From assembly GCA_028708425.1 (NCBI GenBank), contig JAQVYY010000006.1, positions 36,430-100,429 on the forward strand: a stretch of 64,000 bases of DNA. The letters are read 5' to 3'. The notes beneath the pieces are model-generated. The model searched no databases, had not been told where the DNA came from, and saw only the letters and a list, made by a program, of their open reading frames with translations. Positions 12,869 to 43,576 of this stretch are shown in pieces. Position 1 is the first letter of the stretch; each line of letters starts with the position of its first letter. This DNA comes from Bacteroidales bacterium. Lineage in GTDB: Bacteria; Bacteroidota; Bacteroidia; Bacteroidales; Tenuifilaceae. Made by a program: the position numbers and the translations under genes.

Positions 12869-13121
12869 ATAATGCTTCCCTGAACGCTATTGGTATAGAA
12901 AAGAAAAAAACAATTATTTATTGTTATAAACATCTGTTAATTAATGCTTTTTGGCGAAATCAGTAAAATAAAGAAAAAAAAACACCTCTCAATGCTTGTT
13001 ATAAAAAATAAAAAGCATTAGTTTTGCTGCGCTTTTGGTGATAATAAGCACTGGAATGGCAACCTAATAATCAATACATTAGGTAAGTTTAAGGACGTCA
13101 AAGTCCTTTTTTTAAGATACT

Positions 13122-13194
13122 GATTCAGTAGCTCAGTTGGTAGAGCACATCCCTTTTAAGGATGGGGTCCTGGGTTCGAGCCCCAGCTGGATCA
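13122..13194 (+). tRNA. tRNA-Lys (TTT)
   Basis: 73 nt; acceptor GATTCAG/CTGGATC, anticodon loop CTTTTAA, T arm CTGGG-TTCGAGC-CCCAG; CCA not encoded. Confidence 0.95.
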
Positions 13195-13218
13195 CAAAAT
13201 TTTAGTTTTGTAAGTATT

Positions 13219-13291
13219 GATTCAGTAGCTCAGTTGGTAGAGCACATCCCTTTTAAGGATGGGGTCCTGGGTTCGAGCCCCAGCTGGATCA
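13219..13291 (+). tRNA. tRNA-Lys (TTT), identical tandem copy
   Basis: Same 73 nt as the preceding tRNA, 24-nt spacer. Confidence 0.95.
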
Positions 13292-13292
13292 C

Positions 13293-13324
13293 AAAAAAAG
13301 CAGCTTTTTAGGCTGCTTTTTTTG
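13293..13324. terminator. Bidirectional terminator between tRNA pair and SiaC genes
   Basis: AAAAAAGCAGC-ttttta-GGCTGCTTTTTTT. Confidence 0.8.
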
Positions 13325-14841: not shown

Positions 14842-16935
14842 TTAGTTAACCTCGTTATTGTAGTGCCAAGCAGACACTATCTCTCCGTTCTTAAAATGAT
14901 AAACCGAACCATTCTCGTGCTCAACAAGAGTATAAAAAGTTATTACCCCATTTCGATTAAACACAGTACGGGTTAACACTATTTTATTAAGCTGAATTTT
15001 CTCAACCGTCCGCTCGCTAGAATATTTTTCAGCAACATCCTCCACAGGAAGAGGATTGCCCCTATCTATACTTAGGCTGGCTAGTGTACGCCGCTTAAGT
15101 TCCTCAGCCTGTTTATCAATTTGAGCCTGTTTTTTTAACTGCGCCTCAAGCAGCTGTTGCCTAATCTTTTCCTCCTGCCTAAGAATACGCTCGGTTTCCT
15201 GCCTAACTCTTTCCTCTTCAGCAAGGCGAATTTGCTCCTTTGCTTTAGCTTCAGCCATAGCACGGGCTTCGGCTGCCACACGTTTCCTCTCAGCTTCGGC
15301 CAGTCGGGCCTGCTCGGCTGCCTTACGCTCAGCCTCCTCCTGAAGCCTACGCTGCTCAGCCAGCTTAGCCTGCTCGGCTTGCCTTTGCATTTCCTCCTGT
15401 TGCTGCTGTAGTCGGGCTTGCTCCTCCTGCTGACGAATGCGTTCAGCCTCCTGCCTAAACCTTTCCTGCTCGGCAAGGCGTGCCTCCTCCTCGGCTTTTT
15501 GTCTTGCCTCTTGGGCCAAACGCTGCCTTTCTGCCTCACGGCGTTGCTCCTGCTCTCGCTCTATTCGCGCCTGCTCCTTGGCTTCGGCTTCGGCTAAAGC
15601 ACGGGCTTCGGCTGCCTTACGCTTCCTCTCAGCTTCGGCCAGCCGGGCCTGCTCGGCGGCCTTACGCTCGGCCTCCTCCTGAAGCCTACGTTCCTCGGCC
15701 TGCTTAGCCAGTTCTGCTTGTCTTCTCTCCTCCTCCTGCTGGCGCATAAGCCTGGCTTGCTCCTCCTGCTGACGAATGCGTTCAGCCTCCTGCCTAACCC
15801 TTTCCTGCTCGGCAAGGCGTGCCTCCTCCTCGGCTTTCTCCCTTGCCTCTTGGGCCAAACGCTGGCGTTCTGCCTCACGGCGTTGCTCCTGCTCTCGCTC
15901 TATTCGCGCCTGCTCCTTGGCTTCGGCTTCGGCTAAAGCACGGGCTTCGGCTGCCTTACGCTTCCTCTCAGCTTCGGCCAGCCGGGCCTGCTCAGCGGCC
16001 TTACGCTCGGCCTCCTCCTGAAGCCTACGTTCCTCGGCCTGCTTAGCCAGTTCTGCTTGTCTTCTCTCCTCCTCCTGCTGGCGCATAAGCCTGGCTTGCT
16101 CCTCCTGCTGACGAATGCGCTCAGCCTCCTGCCTAACCCTTTCCTGCTCGGCCAGGCGTGCTTCTTCCTCGGCTTTCTCCCTTGCCTCTTGGGCCAAACG
16201 CTGGCGTTCTGCCTCACGGCGTTGCTCCTGCTCTCGCTCTATTCGCGCCTGCTCCTTGGCTTCGGCTTCGGCTAAAGCACGGGCTTCGGCAGCCTTACGC
16301 TTCCTCTCAGCTTCGGCCAGCCGGGCCTGCTCGGCAGCCTTACGCTCAGCCTCTTCCTTAAGCCTACGTTCCTCTGCCTGTTTAGCAATCCTCTCTTTTT
16401 CTGCATCAATAGAAGCTTGTTTTTCTTGCTGAGCATGTGTCCTCTCTTCGGCTGCTAAATCACGCCTGAAGCTTGCCGAATAATCTGTATCATATCCAAA
16501 ATCACCTTTTCGTTTATCGAATCTAATTTTTGCAACAGGATTATTGTAAATTTTAAGGGCACTCGCAGCTGTTTGCGGTTCGAGCTCCACCTCAAAATCA
16601 ATTACTTGCCTTACATCTTTATATTCTAATGGAACAGCTGTACTAATACTGATTTTTTTTGAAACATATCCGCTCTTCTCAAAAGATAGAATATAATCGG
16701 AATCGAATTTAAGTGATAAATCGAAGCGCCCGCCACGACTAAGCGGCTGCCTTGATTCCTCTACCCCATCTTTTATTATAACGATTGTGGCATCAGCGGC
16801 ATTGGACCTCCTAGCCAAAAGACGTCCAAAAACATCAAGCCCACTTTGAGCATAAACAGCTGTGGATAGTAGGCAAAACTGAGCAACTAAAAAGGTAATT
16901 ATAACAATTATGTTAGATTTTGTATAAAACTTCAC
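14842..16935 (-). CDS. Secreted/periplasmic TolA-like charged coiled-coil protein with internal repeats
   Basis: Signal peptide MKFYTKSNIIVIITFLVAQFCLLSTAVYAQ; about 400 residues of EAERKRKAAEARALAEAEAKEQARIEREQEQ-type sequence; globular C-terminus. Confidence 0.8.
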   Translation of the reverse strand: MKFYTKSNIIVIITFLVAQFCLLSTAVYAQSGLDVFGRLLARRSNAADATIVIIKDGVEESRQPLSRGGRFDLSLKFDSDYILSFEKSGYVSKKISISTAVPLEYKDVRQVIDFEVELEPQTAASALKIYNNPVAKIRFDKRKGDFGYDTDYSASFRRDLAAEERTHAQQEKQASIDAEKERIAKQAEERRLKEEAERKAAEQARLAEAERKRKAAEARALAEAEAKEQARIEREQEQRREAERQRLAQEAREKAEEEARLAEQERVRQEAERIRQQEEQARLMRQQEEERRQAELAKQAEERRLQEEAERKAAEQARLAEAERKRKAAEARALAEAEAKEQARIEREQEQRREAERQRLAQEAREKAEEEARLAEQERVRQEAERIRQQEEQARLMRQQEEERRQAELAKQAEERRLQEEAERKAAEQARLAEAERKRKAAEARALAEAEAKEQARIEREQEQRREAERQRLAQEARQKAEEEARLAEQERFRQEAERIRQQEEQARLQQQQEEMQRQAEQAKLAEQRRLQEEAERKAAEQARLAEAERKRVAAEARAMAEAKAKEQIRLAEEERVRQETERILRQEEKIRQQLLEAQLKKQAQIDKQAEELKRRTLASLSIDRGNPLPVEDVAEKYSSERTVEKIQLNKIVLTRTVFNRNGVITFYTLVEHENGSVYHFKNGEIVSAWHYNNEVN
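15165..16400 (-). repeat. Tandem 339-bp (113-aa) coding repeat, about 3.5 copies in phase
   Basis: ACGGGCTTCGGC marker recurs at 15262, 15601, 15940 and 16279, exactly 339 bp apart. Confidence 0.9.
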
Positions 16936-36782: not shown

Positions 36783-36790
36783 AGTAAGGA

Positions 36791-36839
36791 GTGAGAAGTG
36801 AGAGGTGAGAAGTGAGAAGTGAGAAGTGAGAGGTGAGAA
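36791..36839. repeat. Heptanucleotide repeat (GTGAGAR)x7
   Basis: Seven consecutive 7-mers GTGAGAA/GTGAGAG just after trpB stop. Confidence 0.9.
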
Positions 36840-36876
36840 GTAAGTTCTTGGTTTAATTCTGGAGAGAAAAGGGCAC

Positions 36877-38086: not shown

Positions 38087-38683
38087 CTAAAATTTAACTC
38101 CCATTAATGGCGAAATAGTTGTTCCAATGAAGCTAAAACTTGGTATTACTGGGCTATCAAATCTTAATCCAAGCATAAAATTGTTCGAAAAGAGATAGTA
38201 GTAATCAAGCGATAGGCTCATTACTCCATACTCTACAATCTTCTGTGGCCTTACGTCAATTGCAACGGCAATTGTTGTTTCGCTCTCTTGATACCAATCA
38301 AAATCGTAATCAAAGTACCTATGTACCGCACACTTAAACCCAACGCCTGGTTCAATAAAATGACCACCCGTAATCCTTATGGGTCGCGAAAATACCAAGT
38401 CAATCATAAAGTATATATCAAGTCTATCCTGACCTTCAAACATCTCCATGTTTAGCCCCATGGTTTCGGTAGTAACGGCATACGACGAACGGAGATTGAC
38501 ATTGAAACCAGTAGAAAACTTCCGACCTGCCTCAAACCATAGTATGTGCGATGGTTTAGGAATATCTATATTTTTAAAATATCCCACACCACCCCTTAGT
38601 ACATTCTTCTTCAATTCCTGAGCATTGCTATAAAAACAGCAAGTAAAAGCTAGAACTCCTAGTAAAAAAATCTTTTTTATCAT
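38087..38683 (-). CDS. Putative outer-membrane beta-barrel protein
   Basis: Signal peptide, beta-barrel-like alternation. Confidence 0.5.
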   Translation of the reverse strand: MIKKIFLLGVLAFTCCFYSNAQELKKNVLRGGVGYFKNIDIPKPSHILWFEAGRKFSTGFNVNLRSSYAVTTETMGLNMEMFEGQDRLDIYFMIDLVFSRPIRITGGHFIEPGVGFKCAVHRYFDYDFDWYQESETTIAVAIDVRPQKIVEYGVMSLSLDYYYLFSNNFMLGLRFDSPVIPSFSFIGTTISPLMGVKF

Positions 38684-38698
38684 ATTGATGACTATATC

Positions 38699-39295
38699 CT
38701 ATAATGTAAAACGTACCCCACCACCCACAAGAACCATCCCTATACCAGGATCCTGCATAATTATTCCTTTACCATTAGCAAAAACCGAGAATGATTTCGA
38801 AATATCAACTTCCAAACTTACACCACAGGTTACGCCAAACAAATAATTAGTCTCAAGAATGTACTCCCCATCAAGTCTATAGTTATCCGGGGAAACTTCT
38901 ACTGGTGTAGCAATTCTACATCTTAAATTATCCTCCCGCGAAAAGGTTACACCGGCATTAATTTGAACCGAGAACCATTTCTCCTTGATGGGATAGATAA
39001 AAGGGGCTAGGCTAACTAGTTTTGAGCTGTAAGAATCGGGTATATAAAGATTGGACGGCCAATATGGGAAGTACCTTTTTTCGTTGTTGCTGTATTGCGA
39101 GTATGATATAGCCGCACCATACCATCCTTTACGGATACTATACTCAACGCCAATCATTTGCCCTAAGTATTGATTACCTCCAACTGCAAGCATGGAATAT
39201 CCGCTTAAGCTGTGCTTAATACTATCGGTGCTAGAACAAAAACTTTTAAAGGAAATTGCCGCTAGGACAAGTAAAAGAATAATTGTTTTTTTCAT
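38699..39295 (-). CDS. Putative outer-membrane beta-barrel protein
   Basis: Signal peptide MKKTIILLLVLAAISFKSFC, C-terminal GGGVRFTL. Confidence 0.5.
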   Translation of the reverse strand: MKKTIILLLVLAAISFKSFCSSTDSIKHSLSGYSMLAVGGNQYLGQMIGVEYSIRKGWYGAAISYSQYSNNEKRYFPYWPSNLYIPDSYSSKLVSLAPFIYPIKEKWFSVQINAGVTFSREDNLRCRIATPVEVSPDNYRLDGEYILETNYLFGVTCGVSLEVDISKSFSVFANGKGIIMQDPGIGMVLVGGGVRFTL

Positions 39296-39356: not shown

Positions 39357-40584
39357 TTAATACTTTGATATAGAAAAGGTCATATCAAAAACATTACTTG
39401 TAGATCTGATTTTGTTACCTTTATAAACTGGAGCAAGATGATTATTATTATAAAACCAATCCCGATCCCATTCATTGTTTCCTAAACTTCTTCCAGATAC
39501 TTCGAATTCTGCACCAACACTCATTTCTGCACTTGCTGAATCTTTTTTATACCCAACAGAGCCCTTAATCGTGTATTTTTCCTTATTCTTATAGCGATAA
39601 GCACCAACAATTTGCCTAGTTTTTGCTTTAGTCCATTTAGTGTCCCACTCAATATTAACAGGGTACCACTTTTCATCTTTAGCATACTTTCTTGGTAGCC
39701 TAATGTAAATATTTGTTGGGAATGAACCAGTAAGTGTATTACTTGCAGGATTATATGAACCCTCTCCTCTTAGTACATACAAATCAAAGTATCTTGTCCA
39801 AAAAATTGTACTCCAAACAGTTTTCAACTTAATATACTTCAAGCGAACTACCTCATGATCAATATTTGCAGGTGTTGAACTAGGAGGATTACTAGGATTT
39901 GTTGAACCATTACCATTCCCAATATCATCAATTGGAAATTGTGGATATTCAAAATCAATGAAGTTTGGGGTAATTACAAGTACAGGATTGCTGTTTACAT
40001 ATTCCTCGTTTACAATAATATCGCCAGCATTCTTAGCTCCATAAATATATCCTGGCGACTCTGGTATCATTTCATCTATTGGATGGCCAGTAATTGTAAA
40101 TACGCGGTCGTTATCAGAGTAATCTTCCAAAGGATTAATACACCAAATACCACAATCATTTTCAACCAGAAAATCTAAAAGATCCGCATCCAATTCGTAT
40201 TCACTAGTTTTTTTTGTATATGCCTGCTCAAGAGCATTTTTGAGATTCGAAAACTTTAAAACAGCTCCTTTTGTTGCTCTTTCGTGATTTCCTAAAACCT
40301 GAGCGAATGAAATTTCGGGAGTTGTCCTTTTACTAGATCCAAACTGCTTAATTTCTTCATATACATCTTTATCGGTAACAACGTATGACAGCAACTTTGC
40401 TGCCTGATCAAGTTTACCCTTGAGTAATAGTTCATCAACTGTTAGTTCCCTTGGCATATCGGGTTCCTCTGGAACTAATGCATCCTTACCGCAGCTAGTA
40501 AAGAGAAGAGAAGAGAAGAGAAGAGAAGAGAAGAGAGACAAGTGCTATAGCTCTTCGACCTCTAGATAAAAAATTTGTTTTCAT
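39357..40584 (-). CDS. Putative phase-variable lipoprotein; the long frame opens only from TTG at 40541, while the best ATG (40584) is out of frame in this sequence
   Basis: Body frame LLFTSCGKDALVPEEPDMPRELTVDELLLKG; ATG frame MKTNFLSRGRRAIALVSLLFSSLLFSSLY*. Confidence 0.7.
40501..40535 (-). repeat. Pentanucleotide SSR, 7 x AAGAG (CTCTT on coding strand)
   Basis: Seven perfect consecutive units in the signal-peptide coding region. Confidence 0.98.
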
Positions 40585-40626
40585 CTGAATAAATTGCTAG
40601 GTTAATAATAAATAAAAAATATTGGG

Positions 40627-40648
40627 TGTGTCAACACGGCACAAACAT
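40627..40648 (-). promoter_or_regulatory. Promoter/operator: TGTGTCAACACG near-palindrome with TATGTTTG -7 element
   Basis: Minus strand TATGTTTG-tgc-CGTGTTGACACA. Confidence 0.55.
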
Positions 40649-40758
40649 ATAAACAATTGTAATAGTTGCAAACGATTGATATAAAAAACTGCACCAGATA
40701 ACTAAGACTGCCACACAATGAGGCATATAAAATTAATAAGGCTGTCGAAAAACTATTA

Positions 40759-41442
40759 CTAGTAGGCAAATGATAGTCCAACGGAAGGCTTGAAAAACCA
40801 TCTAATAATATCGGGAGACTTGAGGTTATTAGATTCGCTCGAATGGCGATACTCAAAGTTGTTGGTTAGGTTGTATGCCATAAACATAGAGCCTGTAAGT
40901 CTAAATCGCCAAATGTTATAGTGTAACCTAAAACCCGCATCGAGCGAGAGTAAAAAGCTGTTTTTAACATTATACCCATGGTAATCTACCGTAGAGTTCG
41001 ATTCGCTTTTGTCGATATACCCAATTGTTGGGCCGGCGGTAAACTCGAAATTGCGAGAAAAAACGCTCTGAAACAGTTCAAATAGTAACTGGCTAATGGA
41101 ACCCGTTGTGCTGCTAACACCAAGTGCACGATTGGTAGATGAGCGAAAACCGTACCTAAATGTAGCATAGGGCGGATAATCGGCATTATCAAGATCCTTT
41201 ATAAAACCAGCTTTTACTCTATACACCCTATTCTTACCATGAAATTGCCCATAATTTAGGTTATAGTCCATACCCGAGAGGTAACCTCCGCCATTACTTT
41301 TTAACGATAATATGGCACCGTACTGAAAACCTAGGTCATTAAAATATAGCGGGGCTTTATGGGTTTCGTTCTGCGAAAAACAGGTGGTTATTGCGTTAGT
41401 AATGAGTATTATAGTTAATAATAATCTCTGTATATAAAATAC
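40759..41442 (-). CDS. Putative outer-membrane protein; start codon unresolved
   Basis: Frame stays open upstream of the track ATG (41271) through a signal-peptide-like stretch VFYIQRLLLTIILITNAITTCFSQNETHK, with no ATG/GTG/TTG before the in-frame TAG. Confidence 0.5.
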   Translation of the reverse strand, partial: VFYIQRLLLTIILITNAITTCFSQNETHKAPLYFNDLGFQYGAILSLKSNGGGYLSGMDYNLNYGQFHGKNRVYRVKAGFIKDLDNADYPPYATFRYGFRSSTNRALGVSSTTGSISQLLFELFQSVFSRNFEFTAGPTIGYIDKSESNSTVDYHGYNVKNSFLLSLDAGFRLHYNIWRFRLTGSMFMAYNLTNNFEYRHSSESNNLKSPDIIRWFFKPSVGLSFAY

Positions 41443-41464: not shown

Positions 41465-42037
41465 CTACCCTCCTATTTGCTTCTCTAAAAGCAGTAACTT
41501 TTTACCATATCTAACGTCTATCTCCTTGAATTTTGTATCTGCATCAATCTCAATGGCCTCAACCTGGTTCTCAAATCGAGTTTCTATCCTATTTAAAGCA
41601 ATCTCGTATTTTTTTTCGAGCAGCTCTGCTCTTAATGAGTACTCATGCTCAATCTCACTAAACTTTCTTTCAAAATAATTTTGACGTAATGCTCCCTTGA
41701 ATAAGCTTTTTTCAATCTGCTGCTCCAGCTCACCTACTTCCCTTTGAGCCTCTAGTTCTAGTAATGTAATCTCTTTTTCGCCTTGATATTCCAGCTCTGC
41801 CAATGAATCCTCCACCACGGCTTTTAGTATTAAAATTTCCTGATTTATTGCATGTTTTAAAGAATCTATTTCATGCTGAGCCTGTGTTTTAAGGTGTTCA
41901 ACCTCACTATTAACAGATTTATCATTCTGATAAATTTGTCCATTTGATACAAGAGAAATCGTAATGAACAATAATGTTGCTCCAAGTTTGAATTTCATAT
42001 CCACGTTGTTTTGGTTAAATCCTTGTAACAGTTTCAA
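41465..42037 (-). CDS. Secreted coiled-coil hypothetical protein
   Basis: MKFKLGATLLFITISLVSNGQ signal peptide (ATG 41998) followed by Glu/Lys-rich heptads. Confidence 0.6.
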   Translation of the reverse strand: MKLLQGFNQNNVDMKFKLGATLLFITISLVSNGQIYQNDKSVNSEVEHLKTQAQHEIDSLKHAINQEILILKAVVEDSLAELEYQGEKEITLLELEAQREVGELEQQIEKSLFKGALRQNYFERKFSEIEHEYSLRAELLEKKYEIALNRIETRFENQVEAIEIDADTKFKEIDVRYGKKLLLLEKQIGG

Positions 42038-42056: not shown

Positions 42057-42079
42057 TGCGTTAACGCAACACAAATATA
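42057..42079 (-). promoter_or_regulatory. Promoter/operator: perfect palindrome TGCGTTAACGCA with TATATTTG -7 element
   Basis: Minus strand TATATTTG-tgt-TGCGTTAACGCA. Confidence 0.55.
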
Positions 42080-42376
42080 TAACTCTTTAAGAAATATGTA
42101 AGCGGCTCACAAACAAACCGTATTCTAACATAGAATAGCGTATTAGTTGAATTTTACAGACATAAGGTTTTACATTGGGCTGTTGATCGTCATATAAATC
42201 AAGGAAAAAATATCTAGCTAGCCAATTCACTGGTCAAGCTAGGCCATCGCATTAATTACTTTTTGATACTAATATGCAAGAAACATCAGCTAAGAAATGA
42301 GGTTTTCCTCATCCATTTTTGAAAGATGCATCTAAAGTCTTCGCAATTTATTGGTCTAATTTTGTATCAACAAAAT

Positions 42377-42431
42377 AACAACAAAATAACAACAAAATAA
42401 CAACAAAATAACAACAAAATAACAACAAAAT
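42377..42431. repeat. 11-bp tandem repeat AACAACAAAAT x5 (plus a partial sixth upstream)
   Basis: Five exact 11-mers ending 20 bp before the MCP start codon. Confidence 0.97.
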
Positions 42432-42451: not shown

Positions 42452-43576
42452 ATGGGAGCAATAACAATTCAATCAGTAATACTGGCAGGCCCAGTTAGCT
42501 ATACAATCATGTATATTTTGATGCGAACCCTATTTAAGAACTCGGTTCTTTATAAAATTGGATTTGCAACAGGTTCGGCCATTGTGCTGATAGCTTTCGT
42601 TACTAGCGTCCAATCAAAACTTGGCCCTCTTCATAATATATGGGCTTTCCCTCTTAATATAGCCATGGGAGTTTCAGCATACGTTTATGTGGCAAGGGTA
42701 TTAAAAAAGCCTTTGGATAGTATTATTCGTAATGTAAATAAATTAAGCGAAGGAAATCTAAATACTAAAATTGACAAGAGCTATTTGACCAGAAATGATG
42801 AGATTGGAGTTCTTTCGCAATCAATAACTAATCTAACTCAACAGCTTACCGCTGTTGTTTCCCAAATCTCATCAAGTGCCAACCAGCTTGACTCTGCTGC
42901 AGAGGGCCTCAGCTCTAGCTCTCAGGAGCTATCAATGGGTGCTAACCAGCAGGCCTCATCAGTCGAACAGGTTTCATCATCAATGGAAGAGATGGCAACG
43001 AATATCGACCAGAATAACGATAATGCCCAGCAAACCAATACAATTGCCACAAGCGCTTATCGAGCGATAGCCAAAGTTGAAGACGCATCGCAGAAGAGCG
43101 TTATGGCGGTTCGAGAAATTTCGGATAAGATTGGTATCATTACCGATATTGCCTTCCAAACAAACCTATTGGCGCTTAATGCTGCTGTGGAAGCGGCACG
43201 CGCAGGCGAACAGGGTAGAGGTTTCGCAGTAGTTGCTGCCGAGGTACGCAAGCTGGCCGAGAGAAGCAGAATTGCTGCCAACGAAATTACCGATATCTCT
43301 AAATCGAGCTTAAGCATCACCGAGGAATCGGGAAACCTACTTAAGGGAATAGTTCCCGATATAAACAGAACCGCCAAACTTGTTGAGGAAATTGCTGCTG
43401 CAAGCACGGAACAACGACATGGTGCAGCACAAATAAATTCCGCCATTCAGCAGCTATACGGTATTACACAGCAGAATGCATCGGCTAGCGAAGAGCTTTC
43501 ATCGAGTGCCGAGGAGCTTACTGCGCAATCGGATCTTCTCATTGAGGCCATATCCTTTTTTGAGCTAAAAAATTAG
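42452..43576 (+). CDS. Methyl-accepting chemotaxis protein without a large sensor domain
   Basis: TM helices, HAMP-like segment, signalling hairpin [41 protein letters not shown]. Confidence 0.93.

Follow-up and report, generated by a model that had tools for sequence, protein, structure and literature searches.

A CTCTT repeat array in the signal peptide of a Tenuifilaceae lipoprotein gene: a probable Opa-like phase-variation switch in Bacteroidales

The lipoprotein gene and its repeat array

The window analyzed here, a 64,000-nucleotide stretch of contig JAQVYY010000006.1, comes from a congener of Perlabentimonas (Bacteroidales, Tenuifilaceae). Its minus strand carries a predicted lipoprotein gene with the following features in and around it:

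40501..40535, minus: (CTCTT)x7 array within the signal-peptide h-region (direct reading, repeat finder and simulation)
40495..40584, minus: ORF from the ATG at seven units, a 29-codon OFF peptide, MKTNFLSRGRRAIALVSLLFSSLLFSSLY, ending at a TAG just 3′ of the array (translation)
40536..40584, minus: start of the leader, ATG and basic n-region MKTNFLSRGRRAIALV (alignment with the UBA5349 orthologue, G004)
39357..40541, minus: lipoprotein body frame with lipobox ..LLFTSC and a mature part of about 378 aa, open at seven units only from TTG 40541
40642..40649, minus: −7 box TATGTTTG, Bacteroidales type, 65 nt 5′ of the ATG, with TTTG 19 nt further upstream
40624..40637, minus: imperfect palindrome GTGTTGACACACCC resembling an operator, 4 nt past the −7 box and common to both P. 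gracilis array genes
42058–42079: twin of the lipoprotein promoter and palindrome, TATATTTGTGTTGCGTTAACGC, before a coiled-coil gene, 1.4 kb upstream
38699..39295, minus: exported OMP-like protein, downstream, 61% identical to the protein encoded behind the P. gracilis orthologue
38087..38683, minus: second OMP-like protein, downstream, with a homologue (29%) behind the UBA5349 orthologue

On the minus strand, seven perfect CTCTT units begin 49 nt behind the ATG at 40584 and give way to TACTAGCTGCGG; TRF places the repeat at 40501–40536 with 100% matches. A preliminary description of this DNA had placed seven CTCTT units in a lipoprotein signal peptide on this strand, which proved exact to the base. 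It had also held that the ATG frame stops at seven repeats, that six repeats are likewise OFF, and that five or eight join the ATG to the body, all of which was reproduced by translation of simulated unit numbers. The gene was ON at n = 5 (405 aa) and n = 8 (410 aa), reading ...LLFTSCGKDALVPEEPD..., and OFF at n = 4, 6, 7, 9, and 10, with ORFs of 24, 34, and 29 codons at four, six, and seven units, respectively; the ON condition is n = 2 mod 3. As in an SSR translational contingency locus, a pure tandem repeat with a unit not divisible by three lies in the 5′ coding region, and in the simulation one frame in three links the start codon to an intact body while the others stop early. At seven units, the sole opening of the 1.2-kb body frame is a TTG at 40541, six bases 5′ of the array and right after an in-frame TAG; that only a TTG opens this frame had also been noted previously.

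The array is the sole one with at least three CTCTT units in the source genome (3.51 Mb), where neither a paralogue of the body nor another copy of the leader was found. SSRs with other units were surveyed within the window. A reversed-pattern control is uninformative for this search, because reversing the repeat yields the same repeat. As the genome is a draft of 112 contigs, the count of seven might be an assembly error, which would make the present OFF state unreal and leave the array real; however, a 35-bp array fits well inside a short read, and OFF counts also occur in other species, so that we give such an error very little probability.

The body of the window lipoprotein matched no Pfam family at E ≤ 1. 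When Pfam and NCBIfam were searched with the body and its neighbours, nothing exceeded the cut-off except a chemotaxis protein and a TrpB-type enzyme, and Rfam returned tRNAs only. A titin match in a PDB profile search of the body was weak, with no stretch passing alone, and was taken as chance. No fold is claimed for the body, because its AlphaFold model (five sequences) had a pLDDT of 46 and a fold search gave no match at E ≤ 0.001. Since the two downstream OMP-like proteins have homologues behind the orthologues, the lipoprotein gene probably belongs to a cluster encoding surface proteins. A further OMP-like gene in the window, at 40759–41436, has a signal peptide, RLLLTIILITNAITTCFSQ, in frame 5′ of its first ATG (41271) and no usual start codon before it, indicating a lost or unusual start.

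Orthologues, start codon, and selection

The lipoprotein gene is present in two of the four congeners searched, Perlabentimonas gracilis (G002) and the MAG UBA5349 (G004), whose proteins are 64% and about 34–36% identical, respectively, to the window protein (G000). The preliminary description had proposed a search of body homologues for SSRs, and both orthologues carry an uninterrupted run of CTCTT units at the corresponding signal-peptide site, six in P. gracilis and four in UBA5349, each gene being OFF from its ATG. The P. gracilis orthologue would be ON at 4 or 7 units and the UBA5349 orthologue at 2 or 5. All three true orthologues are OFF, an outcome with a chance of 0.30. Neither the lipoprotein gene nor a CTCTT array was found in the two further congeners. 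A rumen MAG of another genus encodes two homologues whose lipoprotein signal peptides are ordinary and repeat-free; the array is therefore not required for the protein.

Upstream of the array, 44 of the 48 aligned leader bases are identical between G000 and G004, as against about 34% amino-acid identity of the bodies. This conservation beyond the bodies supports ATG 40584 as the presumptive true start, and hints at an exchange of the leader. It also bears on an account without any switch, in which TTG 40541 would serve as the start of constitutive lipoprotein synthesis and the array would be no more than a repetitive hydrophobic core. That TTG does open the body frame at seven units, as an equivalent TTG does in UBA5349, but the product, MSLFSSLLF.., would have no basic n-region, whereas the n-region of the ATG leader is conserved. 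Moreover, the TTG sits in the conserved ALVS codons of that leader, directly behind a TAG, and the P. gracilis orthologue (copy a) has no ATG, GTG, or TTG in the body frame 5′ of or inside its array, so that a TTG start cannot rescue it. We consider constitutive expression very unlikely, and take translation to begin in all probability at the ATG.

A comparison of the G000 and G002 bodies shows differences at 75% of synonymous sites (pS 0.75) and 22% of non-synonymous sites (pN 0.22), and the bodies are free of stops in all three species. Judged by these substitutions, the body is under strong purifying selection. Since the two copies that display it are both OFF, there must be times when the gene is ON, and these must be frequent enough to expose it to selection. 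That all three sequenced orthologues are OFF might instead point to decay, the gene being a frameshifted pseudogene in the source genome; given stop-free bodies in three species with pN far below pS, a difference of only one repeat unit between OFF and ON, and conserved downstream partner genes, decay seems to us highly improbable. The comparison between species agrees with a contingency locus, the repeat being kept with differing counts and the body being under selection. Because the orthologues keep pure arrays although synonymous sites are saturated, the array seems to be maintained and not merely inherited; continuing slippage together with selection would best explain why G000 and G002 each retain an uninterrupted array of about 35 bp.

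Recurrence of the array in other Bacteroidota

Among 27 relatives, all five arrays with at least three units sit in lipoprotein signal peptides. The one in G011 (genus g8) is OFF and belongs to a lipoprotein without detectable similarity to the window protein; its gene is followed by an OMP-like gene that is, by eye, similar to one in the P. gracilis cluster. P. gracilis itself has a second array (copy b, G002b), 4.3 kb downstream of the first, with three units plus partial ones in the ON frame. It lies in the signal peptide of a 566-aa HExxH lipoprotein (HELAH motif), whose body shows no similarity to that of the window protein.

Arrays with at least four units were rare, occurring in 7 genomes among 393 Bacteroidales and in 8 among the 396 Bacteroidota sampled, yet they too were often in signal peptides. 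Two of the genes, both with (CTCTT)x7 in the signal peptide and both ON, are probably phase-variable as well and belong to other families of Bacteroidales: a SprB-repeat protein in G119 (L026; Pfam E 4e-12), and a C10 peptidase with a Spi inhibitor domain in G344 (L029; Pfam E 8e-47). Relatives of these two genomes contained no further copies of their arrays. An exported protein of G659 has the array in its signal peptide in the OFF state, which brings to five (G002b, G011, G119, G344, and G659) the other unrelated proteins with such an array, three of them ON. Taking the eight arrays together, 3 are ON and 5 OFF, which fits a random phase with two frames in three OFF.

In the sampled Bacteroidota genomes, 7 of 16–17 arrays with at least four units are in a signal peptide. 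By lineage the figure is 5 of 14 against about 4% expected (binomial 2e-4), and 3 of 12 (0.013) when the window's own family, which contributes two lineages, is left out. The expectation is that of a sense-strand position 20–120 nt past any gene start, with 3000 genes assumed in 3.5 Mb. The impression of a signal peptide could partly stem from the array, since every frame of it resembles an h-region. Two features are independent of the array: where it lies with respect to the start, and the lipobox or signal-peptidase site that follows it. On these counts, the placement of CTCTT arrays in signal peptides does not appear to be due to chance. Signal-peptide placement was rejected for the arrays in G251, G049, G270, G689, G743, G552, and G536, and was ambiguous for those in G456 and G663. 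The G743 genome (L078, Bacteroidia) has intergenic (CTCTT)x24 and x14 beside a long ATCAC array.

The sister arrays also bear on ribosomal slippage, by which some full-length protein would be made at any count and which could explain why a repetitive pyrimidine run is kept in an otherwise fast-evolving leader. Against it, the arrays in G002b, G119, and G344 are in the ON frame, counts differ freely, and neither a slip site nor a stimulating structure was identified; we regard it as most improbable.

The ON-frame signal peptides of the array lipoproteins, judged by eye, have a lipobox Cys (..LLFTSC, ..LLFSSC, and ..FLNSC), and from this Cys onward these proteins read CGKDA, CDKDA, CTEEI, CTKEE, and CKKDD. 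The sequence C-X-K-(D/E)2 is the export signal (LES) of Bacteroidota surface lipoproteins (PMC5080379). Like LES-bearing lipoproteins, the array lipoproteins have charged residues after the Cys; the sister proteins with CTKEE and CKKDD fit the signal, whereas CGKDA of the window protein matches it only in part.

Promoter, palindrome, and a duplicated cassette

Upstream of the window gene, we take TATGTTTG at 40642..40649 to be a Bacteroidales-type −7 box, and the TTTG further upstream to fit a −33 box. The palindrome GTGTTGACAC behind the −7 box is operator-like, and the combined pattern is a −7 box TAnnTTTG, exactly 4 nt, and then GTGTTrrCACrCC. In five genomes of the genus, this combination occurs at only three sites, each before an array gene; a looser form adds one site (four in the five congeneric genomes), before the coiled-coil gene. 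The promoters of G004 and G011 have a −7-like box and no palindrome; because of this absence, a shared operator, with the palindrome as candidate element, is likely for G000 and G002 only.

The two P. gracilis copies are identical at 97 of 108 positions in the 110 bp before the ATG and at 42 of 51 in the leader. Promoter, leader, and array thus behave as a cassette, duplicated before an unrelated lipoprotein. A bolder proposal, which we put forward tentatively and hold to be somewhat less than an even chance, is that a mobile promoter–operator–leader–CTCTT cassette has spread by recombination before unrelated surface lipoproteins of Tenuifilaceae, which would form a small set that switch independently and share one regulator. 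If true, this would make slipped-strand phase variation a modular system in Bacteroidales, with convergence on Neisseria opa extending even to the repeat unit.

Proposed mechanism and relation to known systems

The Opa switch, found in a human pathogen, is a textbook example, and SSR contingency loci in general carry hypermutable short repeats. In Neisseria opa genes, CTCTT repeats in the leader-peptide region cause frameshift ON/OFF switching by slipped-strand mispairing (PMC3960869, PMC3899988). The preliminary description had proposed an Opa-like contingency locus in the window, and its reading gains from the orthologous arrays with other counts, the selection on the body, and the recurrence in unrelated proteins. 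We consider it highly probable that the locus is a slipped-strand translational ON/OFF contingency locus working like opa, convergently evolved and with a modular leader. Transcription would proceed from the fixed Bacteroidales-type promoter and translation would start at ATG 40584, while slipped-strand mispairing during replication would alter the number of CTCTT units. One count in three would join the basic n-region to the lipobox and body, and the lipoprotein would be made; at the other two, a stop soon after the array would leave a leader peptide of 24–39 aa. The proportion of one in three follows from the 5-nt unit. Five being coprime to three, the array encodes repeats of LFSSL whichever frame is read, and the hydrophobic core thus stays functional at any ON count. 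From this arrangement we infer that the array slips in the living population and that the lipoprotein is lipidated and displayed on the surface, and escape from phages, grazers, or antibodies would be an example of a selective reason.

The window gene resembles opa in having CTCTT repeats where the leader peptide is encoded. Unlike the Opa proteins, the Bacteroidota products are predicted lipoproteins, with a lipobox in place of a Pfam opacity-family beta-barrel (no family at E ≤ 1), and opa is a multi-gene family, whereas the Bacteroidota arrays amount to one or two loci per genome. By these comparisons, the window locus would work like opa, yet is not a member of the Opa family. Convergent evolution, which the preliminary description had suggested, agrees with the same array occurring in unrelated Bacteroidota proteins. 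Of 204 cyclic pentamers ranked by hydropathy, CTCTT came 19th. All that rank higher have Cys, Tyr, or Trp in their peptide, with the exception of CTTTT; only two of the 19 most hydrophobic stop-free pentamers, CTCTT being one, are free of these residues. A hydrophobic LFSSL core in all frames may therefore be a simple reason for the convergence on CTCTT.

With the SSR contingency loci of Haemophilus, Campylobacter, Helicobacter, and Neisseria, the window locus has in common that a surface-protein gene carries a short repeat toward the 5′ end of its coding region; the literature found concerns mainly host-adapted proteobacterial and campylobacterial species, whereas the window locus belongs to Bacteroidota. 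For phase variation in Bacteroides, a review cites DNA inversion (PMC11868660). Inversion of capsule and SusC/SusD loci likewise gives ON/OFF heterogeneity of surface structures in Bacteroidales, but it is recombinase-driven, whereas at the window locus the promoter is fixed and the repeat lies within the coding sequence. No earlier report of CTCTT or pentanucleotide phase variation in Bacteroidetes was found in the open-access literature. The occurrence of CTCTT at the same place in unrelated Bacteroidota proteins, including those of the cultured P. gracilis, suggests that the device arises repeatedly, and that an order whose reviewed cases are DNA inversions also has slipped-strand phase variation. 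As P. gracilis is cultured, switching could be tested directly.

Other repeats in the window

A second SSR near the CTCTT array, a perfect 11-mer array (CAACAAAATAA x5.8) at 42368–42431, lies in a promoter position and separates the divergent coiled-coil gene (41465–42037, minus) and methyl-accepting chemotaxis gene (42452–43576, plus). Right behind the trpB-like gene, at 36783–36841, is an AGTGAGA x7.4 array. Two tRNA-Lys(TTT) genes at 13108–13296 form an almost perfect 97-bp tandem duplication, and a 339-bp unit is repeated 3.4 times at 15233–16386 with 93% matches.
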